NCBI RefSeq assembly: GCF_007923295.1
Contig: NZ_VOIR01000015.1
Coordinates: 76,161 to 140,160, forward strand
Length of the DNA stretch: 64,000 bases
Source of the DNA: Agrococcus sediminis
GTDB taxonomy: Bacteria > Actinomycetota > Actinomycetes > Actinomycetales > Microbacteriaceae
Reading direction: 5' to 3'
The position numbers and the translations under genes are program-made. The number at the start of each line of letters is the position of its first letter. The first letter of the stretch is position 1. Shown in pieces: positions 16,724 through 27,191 of this stretch. Under the pieces are notes generated by a model, which had not been told where the DNA came from, made no database searches, and worked only from the letters and a program-made list of their open reading frames with translations.

Positions 16724-17749
<1,026 letters not shown>

Positions 17750-17866: not shown

Positions 17867-17895
17867 GTGACAGGGAACCCAACTTCCTATAGGAT
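17867..17895 (+). promoter_or_regulatory. Promoter with palindromic operator upstream of the tetrulose kinase operon
   Basis: GTGACA (17867-17872, five of six matches to TTGACA) is separated by 17 bases from TAGGAT (17890-17895). The perfect palindrome TCCTATAGGA (17885-17894) covers this -10 box. The same ten bases occur at 21697-21706 before the next operon. Operator position suggests repression, most likely by the GntR protein encoded at 20899-21621. Confidence 0.7.
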
Positions 17896-17944: not shown

Positions 17945-19672
17945 ATGACGCGACTGTTCAACGATCCGTCCCAGTTCGCCGACGAGATGATCGAGGGCTT
18001 CGCGGCCGCGGCATCCCGGTGGGTGCAGGCAGCCCCCGGCGGCGTCGTGCGCTCGACCAGGGCCGACGAGCCCACGGTGGCGCTCGTCGTCGGCGGCGGC
18101 AGCGGCCACTACCCGGCCTTCGGCGGCCTCGTCGGCCCCGGCCTCGCGCACGGCGCCGCGATGGGCAACCTCTTCGCCTCGCCGTCGGCGCAGCAGGTCT
18201 ACGCCATCGCGAAGCAGGCCGACCAGGGCCAGGGCGTGCTGCTCAGCTACGGCAACTACGCCGGCGACGTGCTGCACTTCGACCAGGCCCAGGAGCGCCT
18301 GCGCGCCGAGGGCATCGACGTGCGCACCGTCACCGTCACCGACGACATCTGGAGCGCCCCGAAGGAGCGCCTCGAGCAGCGCCGCGGCATCGCGGGCGAC
18401 CTCGCGGTCTTCAAGACCGCCGGCGCCGCCGCCGAGGCGGGCTACGACATCGACGGCGTCGAGCGCATCGCGCAGACCGCCAACGCCCGCACCCGCTCGT
18501 TCGGCGTCGCCTTCTCGGGCTGCACGCTGCCGGGCGCCTCCGAGCCGCTCTTCACCGTGCCCGAGGGCAAGATGGCGGTCGGCCTCGGGATCCACGGGGA
18601 GCCCGGCATCGACGAGGTCGACGTGCCCACCGCCGACGAGCTCGCGCAGCTGTTCGTCGACAAGCTGCTCGACGAGGTGCCCGACGGCGTCGAGGTCGAG
18701 GGCGCGCGCGTCGTGCCGTTGCTGAACGGCCTCGGCAGCGTCAAGTACGAGGAGATGTTCGTCGTCTACCGCCGCGTGCATGCGCTGCTCGAGGAGCGCG
18801 GGCTCACGATCGTCGAGCCCGAGGTGGGCGAGCTCTGCACGAGCTTCGACATGGCGGGCGTCTCGCTGACGCTGCTGTGGCTCGACGAGGAGCTCGAGCG
18901 CCTGTGGTGCGCGCCTGCCGACTCCGCGGGCTTCCGCAAGGGCTCGGTGGCCCCGCAGCAGCAGGCCGACGCCGTCGACGCCGCGGTCGACGAGCAGGAG
19001 GTGCCCGAGTCGACGGCCGAGTCGCGCGACGCGGCCCACGTCATCGCCGCCGCGCTCGCCGCGGTCGCCGACGCGATCGACGACGCCGCCGAGGAGCTCG
19101 GCCACATGGACTCCGTCGCGGGCGACGGCGACCACGGCATCGGCATGCAGCGCGGCTCGCGCGCGGGCAGCACCGCGGCGACGGCGGCCGTGCATGCCGG
19201 CGCCGGCGCGCAGACGACGCTCGAGCGGGCGGCGGATGCGTGGAGCGACCGGGCGGGCGGCACCTCCGGTGCGATCTGGGGCGAGATGCTCCGCACGCTC
19301 GGCAGGCACGTGGGCGACGACCGCCACGTGACGGCGCAGACCGTCGCCGACGGCGTGGTCGCCGCGAAGGACGCCGTGATGGCGTTCGGCAAGGCCAAGG
19401 TCGGCGACAAGACGATGGTCGACGCCATCGTGCCGTTCGCCGACGACCTCGCCCGCCGCATCGCCGACGGCCAGCGCCTGCGCGACGCGTGGGGGCACTC
19501 CGCCGGCGTCGCCGACGAGGCAGCGCAGGAGACCGCCGCGCTCGCCGCGACGCTCGGCCGCGCCAAGTCGCACGGCGACAAGTCCATCGGCACCCCCGAC
19601 CCGGGCGCCGTCTCGTTCGCGCTCATCTGCAGCACCATCTACGACGTCCTCACCACAGACAGGGAGCAGTGA
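17945..19672 (+). CDS. lerK: DhaK/DhaL-type kinase, probable L-erythrulose kinase
   Basis: A 575-residue ATP-dependent kinase with fused DhaK and DhaL domains. The DhaK half (1-340) has [10 protein letters not shown] and GIHGEPGID, whose His forms the hemiaminal bond with a ketose carbonyl. The DhaL half (about 385-575) has [15 protein letters not shown], the Mg-ATP motif. General members phosphorylate dihydroxyacetone; the group next to RpiB-like and TIM-like isomerases phosphorylates L- or D-erythrulose in tetritol catabolism. Both such isomerases follow here in one operon, which favours erythrulose over dihydroxyacetone. GGAG lies upstream of ATG 17945. Substrate assignment is from context. 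Confidence 0.8.
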
Positions 19673-19674
19673 CC

Positions 19675-20130
19675 ATGGGCATCCGCCTCATCGTCGGCAG
19701 CGACAAGGCCGGCTTCGACTACAAGGAGATCCTGAAGCGCGACATGGAGGCGAACGACCTCGTCGACTCCGTGGTCGACGTGGGCGTCGACGACGCCGAG
19801 GGCTCGACCTCGTACCCGAAGGTCGCCATCGAGGCCGCCGAGCGCGTCGCCCGCGGCGAGGCTGACCGCGCCCTGCTGCTGTGCGGCACGGGCCTGGGCG
19901 TCGCGATCGCCGCGAACAAGGTGTCGGGCATCCGCGCCGTCACCGCGCACGATTCGTTCTCGGTCGAGCGCTCGATCCTCTCGAACGACGCGCAGGTGCT
20001 CTGCATGGGCCAGCGCGTCGTGGGCATCGAGCTCGCGCGCCGGCTCGCCAAGGAGTGGCTGACCTACACCTTCGACCCCGCCAGCCACTCGCAGGCGAAC
20101 GTCGACGACATCTGCGCCTACGAGGGCTGA
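19675..20130 (+). CDS. derI: RpiB-family isomerase, probable D-erythrulose 4-phosphate isomerase
   Basis: A 151-residue member of the RpiB/LacAB sugar-phosphate isomerase family. The active-site Cys is in [16 protein letters not shown], and the phosphate-binding region [11 protein letters not shown] and the His-containing [10 protein letters not shown] loop are present. Ribose-5-phosphate isomerase B is the close relative, but in operons with a DhaK-type kinase and TIM-like isomerase this family converts D-erythrulose 4-phosphate to D-erythrose 4-phosphate (DerI, also called EryI). The ATG is 2 bases after the kinase stop. I assign the function from the operon, with RpiB as the alternative. 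Confidence 0.78.
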
Positions 20131-20134
20131 CCGG

Positions 20135-20902
20135 ATGGCGGGGATGCTGATCGGCTCGAGCCTGAAGATGTACTTCGGGCGCGCCCGCACGCTCGAGTGG
20201 ACGCGCGCGGTCGCCGCGATCTGCGCCGAGCATCCGGCCGTGCAGGGCGGGCTCGTGGAGCCCTTCGTCATCCCCACGTTCCCCTCGATCCCCGAGGTCG
20301 TGCCGATCGCCACCCACGCGGGCATGCTCGTCGGCGCGCAGGATCTCCACTGGGAGGACGCCGGCGCCTTCACGGGCGAGGTGTCGGCGCCGGAGCTCGC
20401 CGAGCACGGCGTCGCGCTCGCCGAGATCGGCCACGCCGAGCGCCGCGCGATGTTCGGCGAGACCGACGAGACCGTCGCCCGCAAGGTGGCGGCCGCCCTG
20501 CGGCACGGCATCGCGCCGGTGCTGTGCATCGGCGAGCCCGACCGGGGCGCACCGGACGCGGCCGCGGCCGCCTGCATCCGCCAGCTCGACGCATCCCTCG
20601 CCCTCGCTCGCGGCGCCGGCGCGACCGGCCGGCTCGTGGTCGCCTACGAGCCCGTCTGGGCGATCGGCGCACCGGAGCCCGCCGGCGACGACCACATCCG
20701 CGCGGTCGGGGCGGCGCTGCGCGCGCACCTCGCCGACGACCCGCTCGACGCGCAGGTCATCTACGGCGGCAGCGCCGGCCCCGGGCTGCTGCCGCGCATC
20801 GCCGACAGCGTCGACGGCATGTTCCTCGGGCGCTTCGCGCACGACCCCGCGGCGTTCGGCCGCATCCTCGACGAGGCGCTCGCACTCCAGGAGACACGAT
20901 GA
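20135..20902 (+). CDS. lerI: TIM-like isomerase, probable L-erythrulose 1-phosphate isomerase
   Basis: A 255-residue triosephosphate-isomerase homologue. Catalytic residues are kept: K11 (GSSLKMYF), H100 (EIGHAERR) and E172 (AYEPVWAIG), with the phosphate loop GGSAGPG. The usual NWKMN start of true TpiA is SSLKMYF here, as in LerI/EryH proteins that interconvert L-erythrulose 1-phosphate and D-erythrulose 4-phosphate. It starts 4 bases after the RpiB-like gene and overlaps the GntR gene by 4 bases. True triosephosphate isomerase is unlikely given the context. Confidence 0.8.
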   Translation: MAGMLIGSSLKMYFGRARTLEWTRAVAAICAEHPAVQGGLVEPFVIPTFPSIPEVVPIATHAGMLVGAQDLHWEDAGAFTGEVSAPELAEHGVALAEIGHAERRAMFGETDETVARKVAAALRHGIAPVLCIGEPDRGAPDAAAAACIRQLDASLALARGAGATGRLVVAYEPVWAIGAPEPAGDDHIRAVGAALRAHLADDPLDAQVIYGGSAGPGLLPRIADSVDGMFLGRFAHDPAAFGRILDEALALQETR

Positions 20903-21621
20903 CCACCCAGCTGCCGTTCCGCGGCGTGCGCGAGCTCGAGCGCCGCGGCCTCCGCGATCGGGTCTACGACCTCATCCTCGAGCTGCTGCTCGAGGGCGAC
21001 GTGGAGCCGGGCTCGCGGCTCTCGATCGACACGCTCGCGAAGCAGCTCGACGTCTCGCCCACGCCCGTGCGCGAGGCGATGGTGCAGCTCGAGCGCACCG
21101 GGCTCGTCACGCGCGAGGCGCTCAAGGGCTATCGGGTCGCGCCCCCGCTCGGGCCCGATCAGCTCGCCGAGCTGTTCGACGCGCGCCTCATGCTCGAGGT
21201 CGAGGCGACCCGGCTGGCCGCGCCGAAGGCCGCCCAGCTGCTCGAGCGGCTGCGCGTCGCGCACGAGCGGCACCAGGAGTGCGCCGACCGCATCGTCGAG
21301 GCGATGGATGCGGGGGCCGACGTGCCCGTGCGCACCACGGCCGAGTACTTCGACGCGGACTCCGCCTTCCACCGCGCGATCTTCGAGGCAGCGGGCAACC
21401 GCTACCTCATCTCGATGCACGACGACCTGGGCGCCATGACGCACCGCTTGCGGCAGGCCGTGCTGCGCGGCACGAGCGACGTGCGCGAGGCGCACGCCGA
21501 GCACGCGCGGGTGCTCGACGCCCTCGAGCGCGGCGACGCCGACGCCGCCACGGCGGCGATGCGCGCACACATCCAGGGCGTGCGCACGCGCTCGGTGCGC
21601 GACGAGGCCGCCGGGTCCTGA
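20899..21621 (+). CDS. GntR-family transcriptional regulator, FadR/FCD subfamily
   Basis: A 240-residue regulator. The N-terminal winged helix-turn-helix shows LRDRVYDLILELLLEGDVEPGSRLSIDTLAKQLDVSPTPVREAMVQLERTGLV, the standard GntR pattern. The C-terminal all-helical FCD effector domain (about 90-230) includes the metal-binding type residues D and H in YFDADSAFHRAIFEAAGN and later H in EAHAEHARVLDAL. It overlaps the isomerase stop (ATGA) and closes the kinase operon. Two copies of TCCTATAGGA, one before each operon, are its best candidate operators. The effector is probably a pathway intermediate. Confidence 0.88.
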   Translation: MTTQLPFRGVRELERRGLRDRVYDLILELLLEGDVEPGSRLSIDTLAKQLDVSPTPVREAMVQLERTGLVTREALKGYRVAPPLGPDQLAELFDARLMLEVEATRLAAPKAAQLLERLRVAHERHQECADRIVEAMDAGADVPVRTTAEYFDADSAFHRAIFEAAGNRYLISMHDDLGAMTHRLRQAVLRGTSDVREAHAEHARVLDALERGDADAATAAMRAHIQGVRTRSVRDEAAGS

Positions 21622-21696
21622 GCCGGCCGGCACTGGCGTGGGGGACACGCCCGGGCTCAGCGCGCGCTTGCGCCCGTCGCGTTATCTGACTAGTTT

Positions 21697-21706
21697 TCCT
21701 ATAGGA
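21697..21706. promoter_or_regulatory. Palindromic operator TCCTATAGGA, second copy
   Basis: An exact repeat of the 10-bp palindrome at 17885-17894, embedded here in an AT-rich stretch (TAGTTTTCCTATAGGATATTTTC) that is unusual for this genome and probably contains the promoter. It lies 51 bases before the start codon of the TIM-barrel gene. Confidence 0.65.
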
Positions 21707-21756
21707 TATTTTCAAGGGCGAAGATCGCGCCCGCGGATTGCAACGGAGCAGACGAG

Positions 21757-22695
21757 ATGGCAGAGCAGCCAGCATTCACCGCCGAGACCTGGCCGATCGC
21801 CACCTGCCTGCACGGCATCCCCGCCGTCTCGGCCGACGGCGTCGCCCTGCACGACGCGGACCCTGCGGTCTGGGACGACGCGTTCGCCCAGGTCGCCGAC
21901 GTGGGCTTCTCGCTCGCGGAGCTCGCCGACAGCCACATCCGCCCCGCCGACCTCGAGGCGAGCCGCAAGGACGAGCTGTTCTCGATCCTCGACTCGCACG
22001 GCATCCGCATCCCCTCGGTGCACCTGCAGCGCCAGAGCGTGATCATGCCCGGCCACGAGGAGCGCAACCTCGCCTACGCCCACCGCACGATCGACGCCGC
22101 GGCGGAGTGGGGCATGGAGGTCTTCTCGACCGGCCTGCACGAGCCGTTCAGCGAGGCGCAGCGCAAGGCGCTGTGGTTCTGGACCGCGCAGGGCCCGACG
22201 AACGACCCGGATGACCCGGAGCTCTGGACCGCGGCGGTGACGCGCCTGCGCGAGCTCGGCCGGCACGCTGCCGAGGTGGGGCTCAAGATGTCGCTCGAGA
22301 TGTACGAGGACACCTTCCTCGGCACCGCCGACTCGGCCGTGCGCCTCGTCGAGGAGATCGGGCTCGACAACGTCGGCCTCAACCCCGACATCGCCAACCT
22401 CATCCGCCTCCACCGGCCGATCGAGGACTGGCGCGATATGCACGCGAAGACGCTGCCGTACGCCAACTACTGGCACGTCAAGAACTACACGCGCGACGAG
22501 GCGGCCGACGGCTCGTGGGCGACCAGCGTGCCCTCCACCATGGAGGGCGGCCTCATCAACTACCGCCAGGTCGTGCGCGACGCGCTCGCGCTCGGCTTCG
22601 ACGGCATCTTCCTCATGGAGCACTACGGCGGCGACAGCCTCGGCAACTGCTCCACCAACCAGCGCTACCTGCGCTCGCTCCTCCCGAAGGGCTGA
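21757..22695 (+). CDS. Xylose-isomerase-like TIM-barrel enzyme (sugar isomerase/epimerase or decarboxylase)
   Basis: A 312-residue metal-dependent TIM barrel of the AP_endonuc_2 superfamily. Probable metal ligands are Glu in MSLEMYED, Asp in GLNPDIANL, His in NYWHVKNY and Glu in IFLMEHYGG. The superfamily includes ketose epimerases, isomerases, dehydratases and the 3-oxo-isoapionate decarboxylase that makes L-erythrulose. It is the first gene of the second operon under the shared operator. The exact reaction is not identifiable. Feeding a tetrulose or its precursor to the adjacent kinase pathway is the contextual inference. Confidence 0.7.
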   Translation: MAEQPAFTAETWPIATCLHGIPAVSADGVALHDADPAVWDDAFAQVADVGFSLAELADSHIRPADLEASRKDELFSILDSHGIRIPSVHLQRQSVIMPGHEERNLAYAHRTIDAAAEWGMEVFSTGLHEPFSEAQRKALWFWTAQGPTNDPDDPELWTAAVTRLRELGRHAAEVGLKMSLEMYEDTFLGTADSAVRLVEEIGLDNVGLNPDIANLIRLHRPIEDWRDMHAKTLPYANYWHVKNYTRDEAADGSWATSVPSTMEGGLINYRQVVRDALALGFDGIFLMEHYGGDSLGNCSTNQRYLRSLLPKG

Positions 22696-22699
22696 GACC

Positions 22700-23653
22700 A
22701 TGACCACGAAGACCATCGCCGTCGTCGGCTCCGGCTACATGGGCGGCGGCATCGCCCAGGTGCTCGCGCTCGCCGGCTACGACGTGCAGATCGCCGACAT
22801 CTCGGCCGAGATCGCGCAGCAGAACCGCGCCCGGCTGCTCGACGAGGCGGCGCAGTTCGCCGCCGACGGGCTGTTCCCCGCCGACGCGGTCGAGCGCATC
22901 GAGGCGCGCCTCACCGCCGCCGAGTCGATCGAGTCGGCCGTCGCCGACGCCGACTTCATCGAGGAGGCGGTGCCCGAGAAGATCGAGATCAAGCACGCGA
23001 CGCTCGCGCGCATCTCGGCCGCCGCCCGCCCCGACGCGATCATCGGCTCCAACACGTCGACGATCCTGATCGGCAGCCTCGCCGAGGCCGTCGAGCACCC
23101 CGAGCGCTTCCTCGGCGTGCACTTCTCGAACCCGGCGCCGTTCATCCCGGGCGTCGAGCTCATCGCGCACGAGGGCACGGATGCCGCCATCCTCCCCGTG
23201 GTCGAGGAGATCGTCGCGGCGACCGGCAAGGAGACGGCACGCGTCGGCGACGCGACCGGCTTCGTGCTCAACCGCCTCCAGTACGCCCTCTTCCACGAGG
23301 CCACCCAGCTCGTGGAGGAGGGCGTGGCGACGCCCGACGACATCGACACGATCGTGCGCACGACGTTCGGCTTCCGGCTGCCCGTCTTCGGGCCGTTCGC
23401 GATCGCCGACATGGCCGGCCTCGACGTCTACGCGTTCTGCTACGCATCGCTGCAGACGCGCTGGCCCGAGCGCTTCGCGACGCCGGACTCCCTCAAGGAG
23501 CTCGTCGACGCCGGCAAGTTCGGCACCAAGTCGGGCTCCGGCTACCTCGAGGTGCCGGCGGAGCGCACCGCAGAGCTCATCGCCTACCGCAACAAGGCGT
23601 ACGTGGCCATCAAGCAGCTCATGGACGAGCTCGGCCCGGCCCCCATCCACTGA
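22700..23653 (+). CDS. 3-hydroxyacyl-CoA dehydrogenase-like NAD-dependent oxidoreductase
   Basis: A 317-residue two-domain dehydrogenase. The N-terminal Rossmann fold has GSGYMGGGIAQ and the domain continues with SNTSTILIGSLA and FLGVHFSNPAPFIPGVELI, containing the catalytic His and Asn. The C-terminal helical domain has GFVLNRLQYALFHEA. The fold covers 3-hydroxyacyl-CoA dehydrogenases, L-gulonate 3-dehydrogenase and carnitine dehydrogenase. In a sugar locus a free 3-hydroxy acid such as an aldonate is more plausible than an acyl-CoA. The ATG lies 4 bases after the TIM-barrel gene. Confidence 0.78.
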   Translation: MTTKTIAVVGSGYMGGGIAQVLALAGYDVQIADISAEIAQQNRARLLDEAAQFAADGLFPADAVERIEARLTAAESIESAVADADFIEEAVPEKIEIKHATLARISAAARPDAIIGSNTSTILIGSLAEAVEHPERFLGVHFSNPAPFIPGVELIAHEGTDAAILPVVEEIVAATGKETARVGDATGFVLNRLQYALFHEATQLVEEGVATPDDIDTIVRTTFGFRLPVFGPFAIADMAGLDVYAFCYASLQTRWPERFATPDSLKELVDAGKFGTKSGSGYLEVPAERTAELIAYRNKAYVAIKQLMDELGPAPIH

Positions 23654-23673
23654 TCCACGAAAGGCATCGGCAC

Positions 23674-24444
23674 ATGGCCACCGCATTCCCCGAGTCCAAG
23701 ACCGTCGTCCTCACCGGCGCGGCCTCGCCGCGCGGCATCGGCCGCGCATCCGCCCACTACCTCGCGGAGCACGGCTGGAACGTCGGCATCATCGACCTCG
23801 ACGCCGACGCGGCCAAGGCGGTCGCCGCCGAGATCGCCGAGCAGCACGGCGTGCAGGCCGCCGGCGCCGGCGCGAACGTCGCCGACGAGGCACAGGTGCG
23901 CGCCGCGTACGACGAGCTCGAGGCCGCCCTGCCGCAGATCGTCGCGCTCGTGAACCTCGCGGGCGTGTCGAGCCCGGTGCCCTACCTCGAGGTCACGGCC
24001 GACGAGTGGAACCGCGTCATGGGCATCAACATGAACGGCGTGCACTACGCCACCCGTCGCGCCGTCGAGTCGATGGTGCAGCACGGCGTCGGCCGCGTCG
24101 TGAGCCTCTCGTCGGTCTCGGCGCAGCGCGGAGGCGGCACGTTCTCGAAGACGGTGTACTCGGCCGCCAAGGCGGGCGTCATCGGCTTCACGCGCTCCGT
24201 CGCCCGCGAGCTCGGCCCGCAGGGCGTGACGGTCAACGCCATCTCGCCCGGCCCCATCGACACCGACATCATGGGCGGCACGCTCACCGAGGAGCGGAAG
24301 GCCGCCATGGCGGCCGACGGCGTGCTCCCGCGCATCGGCACGCCCCGCGACATCGCGGCCGCCATCGCCTACCTGATCTCCGAGGACGCAGGATTCGTGA
24401 CGGGCCAGACCCTGAACGTCGACGGCGGCCTCTACATGCACTGA
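23674..24444 (+). CDS. Short-chain dehydrogenase/reductase
   Basis: A 256-residue classical SDR using NAD(P). Cofactor motif TGAASPRGIGRAS (about 15-27), structural NLAG, catalytic Ser in SLSSVSAQRGG and the YSAAK pair (Tyr and Lys), then PGPIDTDI. A near-consensus AAAG ribosome site precedes the ATG. Acidic residues after the second strand (IDLDAD) suggest NAD preference. In this operon a polyol, tetrose or 3-oxo acid is the probable substrate; the family fold cannot tell which. Confidence 0.85.
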   Translation: MATAFPESKTVVLTGAASPRGIGRASAHYLAEHGWNVGIIDLDADAAKAVAAEIAEQHGVQAAGAGANVADEAQVRAAYDELEAALPQIVALVNLAGVSSPVPYLEVTADEWNRVMGINMNGVHYATRRAVESMVQHGVGRVVSLSSVSAQRGGGTFSKTVYSAAKAGVIGFTRSVARELGPQGVTVNAISPGPIDTDIMGGTLTEERKAAMAADGVLPRIGTPRDIAAAIAYLISEDAGFVTGQTLNVDGGLYMH

Positions 24445-24449
24445 TCACC

Positions 24450-24548
24450 ATGGGCTCCTGGTCGAAGTCGCGCATCCTCTTCCTCGCCCTGGGCGTCGTC
24501 CTCGTCGGCGTCGGCCTGTGGCTGATCCTCCCGTCCGTCCTCAACTGA
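24450..24548 (+). CDS. 32-residue single-pass membrane microprotein
   Basis: A small reading frame starting 5 bases after the SDR stop and ending 35 bases before the transporter start. It has a short basic N-terminus (MGSWSKSR), one hydrophobic helix (ILFLALGVVLVGVGLWLIL) and a PSVLN end. Codon use matches the neighbours, with G/C at nearly all third positions. Position directly before a transporter recalls small helper subunits of other secondary carriers. No database family is recognised. Translation would rely on coupling, as no clear ribosome site is seen. Confidence 0.6.
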   Translation: MGSWSKSRILFLALGVVLVGVGLWLILPSVLN

Positions 24549-24583
24549 CCGAAACCGAAGCACCGCACTCGAAGGAGAGTCCC

Positions 24584-25969
24584 GTGTCCGATACGACACT
24601 GCAGCCGAAGTCGCAGGGCAACCCCGCCCTCGACTCGGCCATCAAGAAGGCCGCCAAGCACCTGATGCCGATGCTGGTGATCCTGTACTTCGTCGCCTTC
24701 CTCGACCGCACGAACGTCGGCTTCGCCGAGGACGCGCTCCAGATGGACCGCGGCATCTCGGCGGGCGCCTTCGCGCTCGGCGCCGGCATCTTCTTCATCG
24801 GCTACGCGATCTTCGAGATCCCGTCGAACCTGCTGCTGAAGAAGTTCGGCGCGCGCTTCTGGCTCGCGCGCATCGCGATCACGTGGGGCCTCGTCGCCTC
24901 GGCGTTCGCGTTCGTGACCGACGACACGTCGTTCATCGTGCTGCGCTTCCTGCTCGGCGTCACCGAGGCGGGCCTGTTCCCGGGCGTGATCCTCTTCCTC
25001 TCCGAGTGGTTCCCGAACAAGCACCGCGTGCAGATGTTCGCGATCTTCTACCTCGCGCAGCCGTTCTCGCAGATGCTCGGCGCCCCGCTGTCGGGCGGCC
25101 TGATCAGCTTCGGCGAGCAGGTGACCCCGTGGGCCGGCTGGCAGGTGATGTTCTTCGTCGAGGGCATGATGGCGGTCGCCGCCGGCATCGCGGCGATCTT
25201 CTTCCTCATCAACGGCCCGCAGGACGCGAAGTGGCTGAACCAGGAGGAGAAGGACGCCCTCATCGACGTGATGGCCAAGGAGGACTCCGTGCGCGAGTCC
25301 GACGGCCCGAGCGGCATCTGGCGCGCGATGGGCAACTGGAAGGTGTGGTACTTCACCATCATCTACTTCTGCCTGCAGATCGCGGTCTACGGCACCACCT
25401 TCTACCTGCCGCAGCAGGTCGCGAACCTGCTCGGCCAGGACGTCGGCTGGCAGGTCGGCCTCGTCGCCGCCATCCCGTGGCTCGTGGGCCTGTTCGCCTG
25501 CTACTTCTTCGGCAAGGCGGCGAACACGATCGCCCGTCGTCGCAACTGGGGCACGCTCTTCTACATCTCGACGGGCCTGTTCATCCTCGGCTCCGCCTGG
25601 GCGGGCGCGAACGGGCAGCCGATCCTCGGCATCCTGTTCATCACCCTCGCGGTCGCGAGCTTCCTCTCGGTGGGCCCGATCACCTGGTCGTACCCGACGG
25701 CGTTCCTCACGGGCACCGCTGCGGCCGCCGGCATCGGCCTCATCAACTCGCTCGGCAACCTGGGCGGCTTCGTCGCCCCGATCATGCGCACGGCGATCAA
25801 CGAGGCCGTCCCGACCGACTCGGGGGCGTGGGGTGTGGTGTCGCTCGGCGTGTTCGCGTTCCTCGCGGCGGCGATGCTCTTCGGCACGAAGCTCTTCAGC
25901 GCGAAGGCGGATGCGCTGCTGGAGGCCGAGAAGGACGAGGACGTGGAGTCGGTGGCCCCGGGCCACTGA
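24584..25969 (+). CDS. MFS transporter, anion:cation symporter (ACS) type
   Basis: A 461-residue, 12-helix secondary carrier. The first helix reads YFVAFLDRTNVGFAEDAL, the signature of the ACS family, whose members carry organic anions such as sugar acids, tartrate or phthalate with protons. FLLGVTEAGLFPGVILFLSEWFP is the next conserved block. GAAGGAG is placed 4 bases before GTG 24584, favouring it over longer in-frame starts. It ends the second operon, so it likely imports the substrate of the dehydrogenases. ACS membership favours an acidic sugar over a neutral polyol. Confidence 0.85.
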   Translation: MSDTTLQPKSQGNPALDSAIKKAAKHLMPMLVILYFVAFLDRTNVGFAEDALQMDRGISAGAFALGAGIFFIGYAIFEIPSNLLLKKFGARFWLARIAITWGLVASAFAFVTDDTSFIVLRFLLGVTEAGLFPGVILFLSEWFPNKHRVQMFAIFYLAQPFSQMLGAPLSGGLISFGEQVTPWAGWQVMFFVEGMMAVAAGIAAIFFLINGPQDAKWLNQEEKDALIDVMAKEDSVRESDGPSGIWRAMGNWKVWYFTIIYFCLQIAVYGTTFYLPQQVANLLGQDVGWQVGLVAAIPWLVGLFACYFFGKAANTIARRRNWGTLFYISTGLFILGSAWAGANGQPILGILFITLAVASFLSVGPITWSYPTAFLTGTAAAAGIGLINSLGNLGGFVAPIMRTAINEAVPTDSGAWGVVSLGVFAFLAAAMLFGTKLFSAKADALLEAEKDEDVESVAPGH

Positions 25970-26162: not shown

Positions 26163-27191
26163 ATGGAGGACACCGTGGCGCAGCAGCCCGACGCTCAGAA
26201 GGCCCCGGTCTTCGACAACCCAGACCGCAACCTGGCGATGGAGCTGGTGCGCGCGACCGAGGCCGCCGCGATCCGCGCCGTGCCGTTCATCGGCCGCGGC
26301 GACAAGAACGCCGCCGACGGCGCGGCGGTCGACGCGATGCGCACGTTCCTCTCGACGGTCGCCTTCGACGGCGTCATCGTCATCGGCGAGGGCGAGAAGG
26401 ACGAGGCGCCGATGCTCTTCAACGGCGAGCACGTCGGCAACGGCCGCGGCCCCTCGGCCGACATCGCCGTCGACCCGATCGACGGCACCTCGCTCACCGC
26501 CGCCGGCCGGCAGAACGCGCTCAGCGTGATCGCCGTCGCCGACCGCGGCACGATGTACGACCCGATCGACGCGTTCTACATGGACAAGCTCGTCGCCGGC
26601 CCCGAGGCGATCGGCGTCATCTCGCTCGACCAGTCGATCGGCGACAACATCCGCGAGCTCGCGCGCGCCAAGGGCAAGGACGTCGGCGAGATCGTCGTCG
26701 CGGTGCTCGACCGCCCGCGCCACGCCGAGCTCATCGAGGAGATCCGCTCGGCTGGCGCCGGCACGCGGCTGATGCGCGACGGCGATGTCGCCGGCGGCAT
26801 CAACGCGGCCCGCTGGGAGAGCCGCATCGACATCTGCGCCGGCGCGGGCGGCACGCCCGAGGGCGTGATCACCGCGTGCGCGATCAAGGCGCTCGGAGGC
26901 TTCATGGAGGGGCGCCTGTCGCCGCAGTCGGACGAGGAGCACCGCAAGGTCGTCGCCGCGGGCCACGACCTCGACCGCGTGCTCGGGCTCGACGACCTGG
27001 TCGCGAGCGACAACACCTACTTCGTCGCGACCGGCGTCACCGACGGCCAGCTGCTCGACGGCGTGCGCCGCAAGGGTCCGCTCATCCGCACCGAGTCGCT
27101 CGTGCTGCGCTCGAAGACCGGCACCGCGCGCCGCGTGATCGCCGAGCACCGCGCCGAGAAGTGGCTGGAGCCGGGCTCGAGCCGAGGCTGA
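26163..27191 (+). CDS. glpX: Class II fructose-1,6-bisphosphatase
   Basis: A 342-residue phosphatase removing the 1-phosphate of fructose 1,6-bisphosphate in gluconeogenesis. GlpX motifs are present: NPDRNLAMELVRATEAAA, GRGDKNAADGAAVDAMR, GEGEKDEAPML and AVDPIDGTSL (metal site). In many actinobacteria this is the only such enzyme. A TACGCT -10 box lies at 26141-26146, giving a leader of about 10 nt to ATG 26163. GTG at 26175 is an alternative start, because GGAGG overlaps the ATG codon and sits 5 bases before that GTG. Confidence 0.94.
   Translation: MEDTVAQQPDAQKAPVFDNPDRNLAMELVRATEAAAIRAVPFIGRGDKNAADGAAVDAMRTFLSTVAFDGVIVIGEGEKDEAPMLFNGEHVGNGRGPSADIAVDPIDGTSLTAAGRQNALSVIAVADRGTMYDPIDAFYMDKLVAGPEAIGVISLDQSIGDNIRELARAKGKDVGEIVVAVLDRPRHAELIEEIRSAGAGTRLMRDGDVAGGINAARWESRIDICAGAGGTPEGVITACAIKALGGFMEGRLSPQSDEEHRKVVAAGHDLDRVLGLDDLVASDNTYFVATGVTDGQLLDGVRRKGPLIRTESLVLRSKTGTARRVIAEHRAEKWLEPGSSRG

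Follow-up and report, generated by a model that had tools for sequence, protein, structure and literature searches.

The catabolism of tetritols in Mycobacterium smegmatis uses LerK, LerI and DerI. For D-apionate, a pathway via ApnL, ApdG and OiaC, followed by an L-erythrulose kinase and isomerases, was reportedly described by Carter et al. in 2018, and Zhang et al. are said to have described in 2016 the DUF1537/PdxA2 and LtnD-OtnI-OtnK-OtnC pathways for D-threonate, D-erythronate and L-threonate. The combination of PdxA with DUF1537 is known for four-carbon acids, and L-gulonate 3-dehydrogenase (lambda-crystallin) belongs to a route to 3-keto-L-gulonate and L-xylulose. Kinase and isomerase counterparts of the tetritol pathway are EryH/EryI in Brucella and EYK1/EYI1 in Yarrowia, as given in the available part of one report (PMC5992420), and the available part of another describes a catabolic route for L-threonate (PMC12540250). 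Here, a stretch of 64,000 nucleotides from Agrococcus sediminis (contig NZ_VOIR01000015.1, positions 76,161 to 140,160; the window) was analysed. A gene cluster at 17945-25969 of the window probably forms a two-operon regulon in which a sugar acid would pass through a beta-hydroxyacid dehydrogenase and a triosephosphate isomerase (TIM)-barrel enzyme, AP2, to a tetrulose and on to erythrose 4-phosphate. No description of this gene set was found in the open-access literature; subscription papers lie outside that search.

Every gene that the earlier note had listed for this interval was found, intact and in the order it gave, and the Pfam domain calls on the cluster proteins were all above their cut-offs. 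All genes lie on the forward strand. A first operator copy, TTCCTATAGGAT at 17884..17895 (+), precedes the gene of a DhaKL-type ATP-dependent ketose kinase (17945..19672; PF02733+PF02734, Dak1+Dak2; NF011049, 745.1 bits, cut-off 492), a candidate erythrulose kinase. It is followed by an RpiB-family isomerase (19675..20130; PF02502, LacAB_rpiB), a candidate DerI-like D-erythrulose-4-phosphate isomerase, a TIM-family isomerase (20135..20902; PF00121), a candidate L-erythrulose-1-phosphate isomerase of the LerI/EryH kind, and a GntR/FCD regulator (20899..21621; PF00392+PF07729). A second operator copy, at 21696..21707 (+), precedes AP2 (21757..22695; PF01261, AP_endonuc_2), a candidate 3-oxo-acid decarboxylase. 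Next come HADH, a 3HCDH-type NAD dehydrogenase (22700..23653; PF02737+PF00725, the 3HCDH_N and 3HCDH domains) and candidate sugar-acid 3-dehydrogenase, a short-chain dehydrogenase/reductase (SDR; 23674..24444; PF13561, adh_short_C2) with a predicted accessory step, and a major facilitator superfamily (MFS) carrier (24584..25969; PF07690, MFS_1), the candidate sugar-acid importer. Both operator copies are exact, and in each case the first base lies 61 bases before the ATG of dhaKL or AP2. The genome measures 2.74 Mb, and the nearest named relatives of AP2 are from Agrococcus (90-93% identity).

In the proposed pathway the MFS carrier would import the sugar acid, most likely an aldonate and most likely one of five carbons, and HADH would oxidise the hydroxyl beta to the carboxylate, proposed to be that at C3. 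The resulting 3-oxo acid would go to AP2, whose reaction is most likely a metal-dependent decarboxylation; the tetrulose so formed, with L-erythrulose as the likeliest, would then be phosphorylated by DhaKL. The TIM-like enzyme would convert L-erythrulose 1-phosphate to D-erythrulose 4-phosphate and the RpiB-like enzyme would convert the latter to D-erythrose 4-phosphate for the pentose phosphate pathway. Both operons are proposed to be governed by the GntR/FCD protein at TCCTATAGGA, with its binding and sign as predictions. Plainly observed are the gene content, the conservation of the operator, the LerI-like affinity of the TIM-family protein, an interchangeable first dehydrogenase and carriers of anion type.

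AP2 loci came from three sources. Among 299 genomes of the bacterial family, 75 had an AP2 match at E 1e-40, and 40 places in them were taken as wide stretches; 93 plasmid records matched, 7 of which supplied loci; and a scan of species genomes contributed its best 80 loci, all with at least 69% AP2 identity. The tabulated set comprised 127 AP2 loci (numbered with L, their genomes with G) in 2.56 Mb, with 120 distinct AP2 DNA sequences; it includes near-copies and duplicated genomes and was selected by AP2 similarity, so that proportions in it are not natural frequencies. Genes were called by a codon-usage script and labelled by BLAST against the window genes and a few representatives, and DUF1537 was counted by tblastn. 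A gene is called absent when these queries did not find it within 9.5 kb of AP2, and loci cut by a contig end were counted as absent.

The same operator, as the earlier note had proposed, stands before both operons. Chance would give 0.09 sites of TTCCTATAGGAT per window even with two mismatches allowed, and the two copies are the only exact ones in the whole genome, which has one further site with a single mismatch on contig C1. In the 127 loci, TCCTATAGGA occurred at 150 exact sites, and 147 of these lay within 400 bases upstream of AP2 (91), dhaKL (51), a second carrier gene, MFS2 (2), gntR (2) or PdxA (1); the remaining three stand before a further MFS gene. By comparison, the 29 palindromes made by permuting its letters occurred at most 7 times each (median 0) in the same loci. 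A site was present anywhere in the locus in 82 of the 94 loci with HADH, 12 of the 20 with PdxA, the single mixed locus and 2 of the 12 others, and HADH-type and PdxA-type clusters alike carry the operator. The dhaKL and AP2 genes have it even when their operons lie apart or convergent (e.g. L033). In 105 of the 127 loci, a GntR relative lies no more than 9.5 kb from AP2.

Across the family, WTCCTATAGGAW was detected in 62 of the 299 genomes, and 20 stretches were taken around operator sites away from known AP2 or dhaKL genes. Pathway genes adjoin the site in three of these (L182, L183 and L184), an SDR relative (45-47%) in L167 and L168, and an MFS gene in L169; in the other stretches the site lies by enolase-superfamily, glycosidase or GntR genes, as judged by eye, or by unrelated genes. 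Because such sites also adjoin other sugar-type clusters and unrelated genes, membership of the regulon cannot be read from the operator by itself. In L170, L172, L176-L179, L185 and L186 the palindrome was seen by enolase-superfamily-like, glycosidase-like, transporter or GntR genes (by eye), which suggests another sugar-acid regulon whose FCD regulator would be a paralogue with similar specificity.

HADH gave 24 matches to NCBIfam models, none over its cut-off (the best 222.7 of 508, 217 of 427 and 216 of 500 bits), and apart from it the Pfam scan of the cluster proteins gave none of fatty-acid type. Among the 63 HADH matches in the 299 genomes, 52 of 54 with at least 60% identity lay within 10 kb of AP2, against one of nine below 60%. 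Of the two exceptions, L202 begins at a contig end and carries dhaKL; the cluster of L183 has the operator and a DUF1537 gene and is complete except for AP2, of which a 43% relative lies elsewhere in that genome. A CoA substrate for HADH is disfavoured because of this linkage to AP2.

The first dehydrogenase was HADH in 94 of the AP2 loci, PdxA in 20, both in one and neither in 12. In the congeneric genome G049 (L047), PdxA and TctCBA occupy the places of HADH, SDR and MFS in the window, and in L079, from an Agrococcus metagenome-assembled genome, HADH and PdxA stand in one gene run. On an AP2 tree of 128 rows (121 different), made by a quick method and with several long branches of unsure placement, the HADH and PdxA types required seven changes; the starred strong branches force three changes for PdxA and four for HADH against all other labels. 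An unrelated dehydrogenase of the PdxA family thus appears to have repeatedly replaced HADH under one operator. AP2 would then partner with two unrelated dehydrogenases, and what is common to both is the oxidation of a beta-hydroxyacid. Solved relatives of PdxA include D-threonate-4-phosphate dehydrogenase and terephthalate cis-dihydrodiol dehydrogenase. A dehydrogenase of the HIBADH/threonate-dehydrogenase type also stands in for HADH in related clusters; the four HIBADHs scanned matched the L-threonate dehydrogenase model best, below its cut-off. The SDR, with a relative near AP2 in 77 of the 127 loci, falls outside the invariant core.

The lower half of the pathway consists of the DhaK-type kinase and the TIM-type and RpiB-type isomerases in one operon. 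In the Protein Data Bank (PDB), the cluster TIM matched 3s6d, a "putative" TIM, at 1.7e-42 and 11ef, an L-erythrulose-1-phosphate isomerase, at 6.8e-39, whereas all other TIMs were at 3.8e-31 or weaker; 11ef is its best match named for a function other than TIM. As a control, the housekeeping TIM encoded beside pgk matched canonical TIMs at 8.2e-89, with 11ef outside the best 60 of 184 matches. The cluster TIM is thus nearer to a solved L-erythrulose-1-phosphate isomerase than to any established TIM, which favours a tetrulose. The RpiB-like protein is nearest to 3qd5 (3.5e-55) and 3sdw (4.9e-55), both labelled ribose-5-phosphate isomerase, as are the remaining RpiB chains, which range from 9.7e-28 (5ifz) and 2.8e-25 (2vvr) to 5.6e-11 (2vvo), and it exceeds the RPI_actino cut-off (205.9 versus 168.2 bits). 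Second copies of DhaK, TIM and RpiB are present elsewhere in the same genome, with identities to the cluster proteins of 41% for the DhaK part, 34% for the DhaL part, 42% for TIM and 29% for RpiB. Identities to the proteins of ApnL-like clusters in other genomes, described below, were 59-63% for DhaKL, 56% for TIM (in one of two clusters) and 75-76% for RpiB. In Yarrowia, the erythrulose kinase EYK1 is clustered with TIM and RpiB homologues for erythritol use, and deletion of the RpiB-type gene impairs growth on erythritol, according to the available part of the source (PMC5992420). The closeness to 11ef, the identity to the ApnL-like clusters and the Yarrowia parallel bear out the earlier assignment of kinase and isomerases to the L-erythrulose/D-erythrose-4-phosphate type.

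The composition of the lower operon varies. Many Curtobacterium operons (e.g. L120, L124 and L126) have no rpiB, with tim directly after dhaKL, and in Rathayibacter L100, L101, L104 and L105 rpiB is kept and tim is missing. The congeneric cluster of PdxA type also encodes, downstream of TctA, a stand-alone Dak2/DhaL-domain protein (PF02734; L047:15039-15647, +).

The AlphaFold2 model of AP2 is a confident barrel (pLDDT 89.8). Its only close solved structure is 5tnv, a Mg-bound protein of M. smegmatis from 2016 with 42% identity, whose title names no function, and no paper naming 5tnv was found in the open-access literature. Across 20 AP2 sequences E181, D211, E288, R92, R217, R220, K242 and R246 are invariant, and the first three are presumably metal ligands; H240 is less constant, with Q in its place in four sequences of an earlier alignment. 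The invariant basic residues would suit a carboxylate substrate.

The carriers point to an anion. The MFS protein of the window was matched best by the D-galactonate transporter model TIGR00893 (264.9 of 395 bits) and then by HpaX (228.8 of 615.4), below both cut-offs, and MFS2 (L066) is also nearest to TIGR00893 (224 of 395 bits). In related clusters TctABC replaces the MFS carrier (Pfam), and in Streptomyces L077 a GntP protein that exceeds the cut-off set for gluconate:H+ symporters in TIGR00791 (419.3 versus 292.75 bits) is encoded beside a HIBADH. Seven loci have a relative of the PF04909 protein seen in L058; among NCBIfam models, L-fuconolactonase matches this protein best (72.5 of 400 bits). 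Of the 127 loci, 18 had a relative of the DUF1537 acid-sugar kinase no further than 9.5 kb from AP2; all 18 are of HADH type and 15 have a HIBADH relative. The three DUF1537 proteins tested had PF07005+PF17042. These swaps of carrier (TctABC, GntP) and of dehydrogenase (PdxA, HIBADH), with the lactonase-like and DUF1537 genes, speak for the sugar-acid front end that the earlier note had preferred.

The distribution of DUF1537 differs between the two types of cluster. Anywhere in the locus, 20 HADH+AP2 loci had a relative, which presumably serves another acid there, as opposed to none of the 20 PdxA+AP2 loci. The window genome itself has no PdxA and a single DUF1537 gene on another contig (C1:202505). 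The 299 genomes held 11 places with PdxA and no AP2. In the ten examined, DUF1537 was found in seven (L182 and L191-L196) and dhaKL in none; L197 had only the DUF1537 motif, in a short frame, and L190 and L198 had no DUF1537. Three of the AP2-less PdxAs are close to the AP2-linked kind, namely those of L182 (73%) and L192 (68%), both with DUF1537, and of L190 (61%), with TctCBA and no DUF1537. Together with PdxA, AP2 and DhaKL seem to replace the acid kinase. The natural reading is that there are two orders of events. Either the acid is phosphorylated before its oxidation and decarboxylation (DUF1537 with PdxA), or oxidation and decarboxylation come first (PdxA or HADH, with AP2) and DhaKL then phosphorylates the ketose. 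In the second order AP2 would stand after the 3-oxo acid and before the ketose. Locus L183, with DUF1537 and without AP2, fits this reading.

Several observations weigh against the pathway as proposed here. The substrate and activity of every cluster protein are predictions. The cluster RpiB scores below the cut-off of the model for rhizobial DerI (139.1 of 240 bits), RpiB and TIM were found near AP2 in only 78 and 83 of the 127 loci, respectively, and the rhizobial loci L073-L075, L165 and L166 have neither nearby. The operator is also found outside this pathway in the family. Identity between most AP2-less PdxAs and the AP2-linked kind is only 46-54%. Genes for MFS2 and the lactonase-like protein accompany PdxA and DUF1537 as well (L182 and L192), and some of these clusters may use four-carbon acids. 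PdxA enzymes can decarboxylate unaided, and the PdxA-DhaKL loci seen hold AP2 (most loci having been chosen by AP2), so that the retention of AP2 there weakens its reading as a decarboxylase. Finally, of the Curtobacterium relatives isolated on D-erythrose (Ery-28b) and L-erythrulose (Eru-6) enrichments, Ery-28b was unable to use L-erythrulose, according to the available part of the report (PMC12780249).

The possibility that PdxA partners decarboxylate unaided lends some weight to an alternative in which AP2 is an isomerase or epimerase, either an OtnI-like 2-oxo/3-oxo acid isomerase following a 2-dehydrogenase, or a D-/L-erythrulose 3-epimerase following a spontaneous decarboxylation. The HIBADH-type genes near AP2 in some loci are consistent with it. 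The best NCBIfam matches of AP2, the D-psicose 3-epimerase and the L-ribulose-5-phosphate 3-epimerase, are weak, and all six matches are far below the cut-offs (11.9-24.2 bits of 200-353), with hydroxypyruvate isomerase TIGR03234 at 13.9 of 353.45 bits. Up to E 10 no OtnI model came up, if the library has one. The fold neighbours beyond 5tnv among the 50 Foldseek rows listed are mostly epimerases and isomerases, but at 12-17% identity, and include dehydratases and a hydratase. We regard this alternative as a real, if tentative, possibility, and decarboxylation of the 3-oxo acid remains our preferred role for AP2.

A four-carbon acid, threonate or erythronate, is an unlikely substrate. Its oxidation at C3 and decarboxylation would yield dihydroxyacetone, which DhaKL would convert to dihydroxyacetone phosphate and TIM to glyceraldehyde 3-phosphate, the very reactions for which the two proteins are named. 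In its favour, the rhizobial clusters are made up only of GntR, PdxA, TctCBA, AP2 and DhaKL; their order is PdxA-TctCBA-AP2-DhaKL, L073 being that of pSymB in Sinorhizobium meliloti 1021 (about 1.559-1.567 Mb), and GntR adjoins in L073-L075. D-threonate-4-phosphate dehydrogenase is the nearest solved relative of PdxA, PdxA is paired with a DUF1537 kinase in L182 and L192, and the L-threonate dehydrogenase model fits the scanned HIBADHs best, below its cut-off. However, the cluster TIM resembles L-erythrulose-1-phosphate isomerase more than TpiA, the genome has housekeeping copies of TIM, RpiB and DhaK elsewhere, RpiB would have no role in dihydroxyacetone catabolism, and the kinase and both isomerases match the proteins of the apionate-like cluster. 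The annotation of the rhizobial locus L165 has a second PdxA beside its Tct genes.

That the locus catabolises five- or six-carbon acids from plant ascorbate is a rather improbable extension of the proposed pathway. In the available part of one source, 2-oxo-L-threo-pentonate is among the oxidation products of diketogulonate in ascorbate breakdown, and 2-carboxy-L-threo-pentonate is a proposed by-product (PMC6225978). From the latter, oxidation at C3 and two decarboxylations would give exactly L-erythrulose. An acid of this kind would account for the need for AP2 beside a PdxA-type oxidative decarboxylase, for the carriers of tricarboxylate type, and for the presence of the cluster in Curtobacterium, Clavibacter, Rathayibacter and Sinorhizobium, which are often plant-associated.

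Catabolism of a tetritol or free tetrose (erythritol, threitol or erythrulose), with a 3HCDH enzyme that is irrelevant or acts on acyl-CoA, is very unlikely. The lower module is of the LerK/LerI/DerI type, and other Curtobacterium carry a window-type cluster in the genus whose isolates came from the D-erythrose and L-erythrulose enrichments; the available part of that report states that tetrose uptake and catabolism are still to be elucidated (PMC12780249). Against this stand the anion-type carriers, the HADH subfamily that is nearly always linked to AP2 and is replaced by PdxA, and the lack of any further fatty-acid-type gene among the cluster proteins. The earlier statement that a zinc-dependent medium-chain dehydrogenase is missing agreed with the Pfam scan, in which none was found among the cluster proteins.

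The D-apionate route was compared through ApnL-like clusters of two Microbacteriaceae genomes (L187 and L188), which contain DhaKL, RpiB, a PF01261 enzyme of 260-264 aa, a PGDH_C/KARI_N-type protein, an SDR and an ApnL-like gene; TIM is present only in the cluster of L188, and L187 has further genes in between. These clusters would represent the apionate/OiaC route by their resemblance to the pathway reported by Carter et al., and it was their PF01261 protein that served for the comparison with OiaC; the PGDH_C/KARI-like protein of L188 we take, by context, to be ApdG. AP2 is only remotely similar to the PF01261 protein (28% identity over 141 aa, pairwise E 0.003), HADH gave no meaningful alignment with the PGDH_C/KARI-like protein of L188, and genome G106 holds a window-type cluster (L049) as well as an ApnL-like one (L187). 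An identity of AP2 with OiaC, which the earlier note had cited as a precedent, was therefore rejected on sequence and on this coexistence. The ApnL model NF049900 had no match in the window genome at E 1e-30 and three partial, sub-threshold matches over 396 genomes of the phylum. In L108, an ApnL-like gene (210.3 of 750 bits) and a PGDH_C/KARI-type fragment (by eye) adjoin a DUF1537-HIBADH-AP2-HADH-SDR-MFS run. Despite this neighbourhood and a lower module identical in kind, the D-apionate/3-oxo-isoapionate pathway is the least probable reading of the window, whose genome lacks an ApnL match, whose cluster lacks a PGDH_C/KARI-like oxidoisomerase and whose AP2 and HADH are not orthologous to the ApnL-like cluster proteins.

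The cluster is flanked upstream by a divergent fba (class II fructose-bisphosphate aldolase, 16724-17749, -) and downstream by glpX (about 26163-27191, +). In the table of loci fba also lies near AP2 in L044, L047, L078-L081, L141 and L144, and glpX in L047, L078, L081, L118, L141 and L144, in both cases mostly Agrococcus. Between the SDR and MFS genes a 32-codon open frame (24450-24548, +; start MGSWSKSRILFLALG) has one hydrophobic segment and could possibly encode a small membrane protein of the operon.

In any version of the pathway two unrelated dehydrogenases converge on one TIM-barrel enzyme. The proposed pathway, if true, would add a sugar-acid entry to tetrulose-phosphate metabolism, give a function to a TIM-barrel family of Actinomycetota and rhizobia that includes 5tnv, and provide a case of a pathway that keeps its operator while enzymes of unrelated folds take turns at its first step. 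The operator could serve as a reporter, so that the substrate could be found by screening.

Compared with the described systems, the window shares with tetritol catabolism, as by LerK/LerI/DerI of M. smegmatis, a kinase with TIM-like and RpiB-like isomerases leading to D-erythrose 4-phosphate. Unlike the tetritol systems it has an anion carrier and a beta-hydroxyacid-type dehydrogenase, and no polyol dehydrogenase or transporter was identified in it. The DUF1537/PdxA2 and Otn pathways likewise involve sugar acids, dehydrogenases of PdxA or HIBADH type and loss of CO2, but where DUF1537/PdxA2 phosphorylates the acid, the system of the window would phosphorylate the ketose. L-gulonate 3-dehydrogenase resembles HADH in its 3HCDH fold, in aldonate oxidation at C3 and in the loss of CO2, and 3ado and 3f3s are relatives of HADH; that route is eukaryotic and concerns a six-carbon acid, however, and the closer PDB relatives of HADH are 3mog and 4om8. 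The D-apionate/OiaC pathway likewise turns a sugar acid into a 3-oxo acid, from which a PF01261-type enzyme makes L-erythrulose, with DhaKL, TIM and RpiB thereafter. The window differs from it in having neither ApnL nor an ApdG-like protein in the cluster, in its 3HCDH-type dehydrogenase (PdxA in its kin) and in a TIM barrel that forms a separate clade of 312 aa. With AP2 and HADH non-orthologous to the proteins of the ApnL-like clusters and both clusters coexisting in one genome, the pathway of the window would be a parallel entry into the same lower half.

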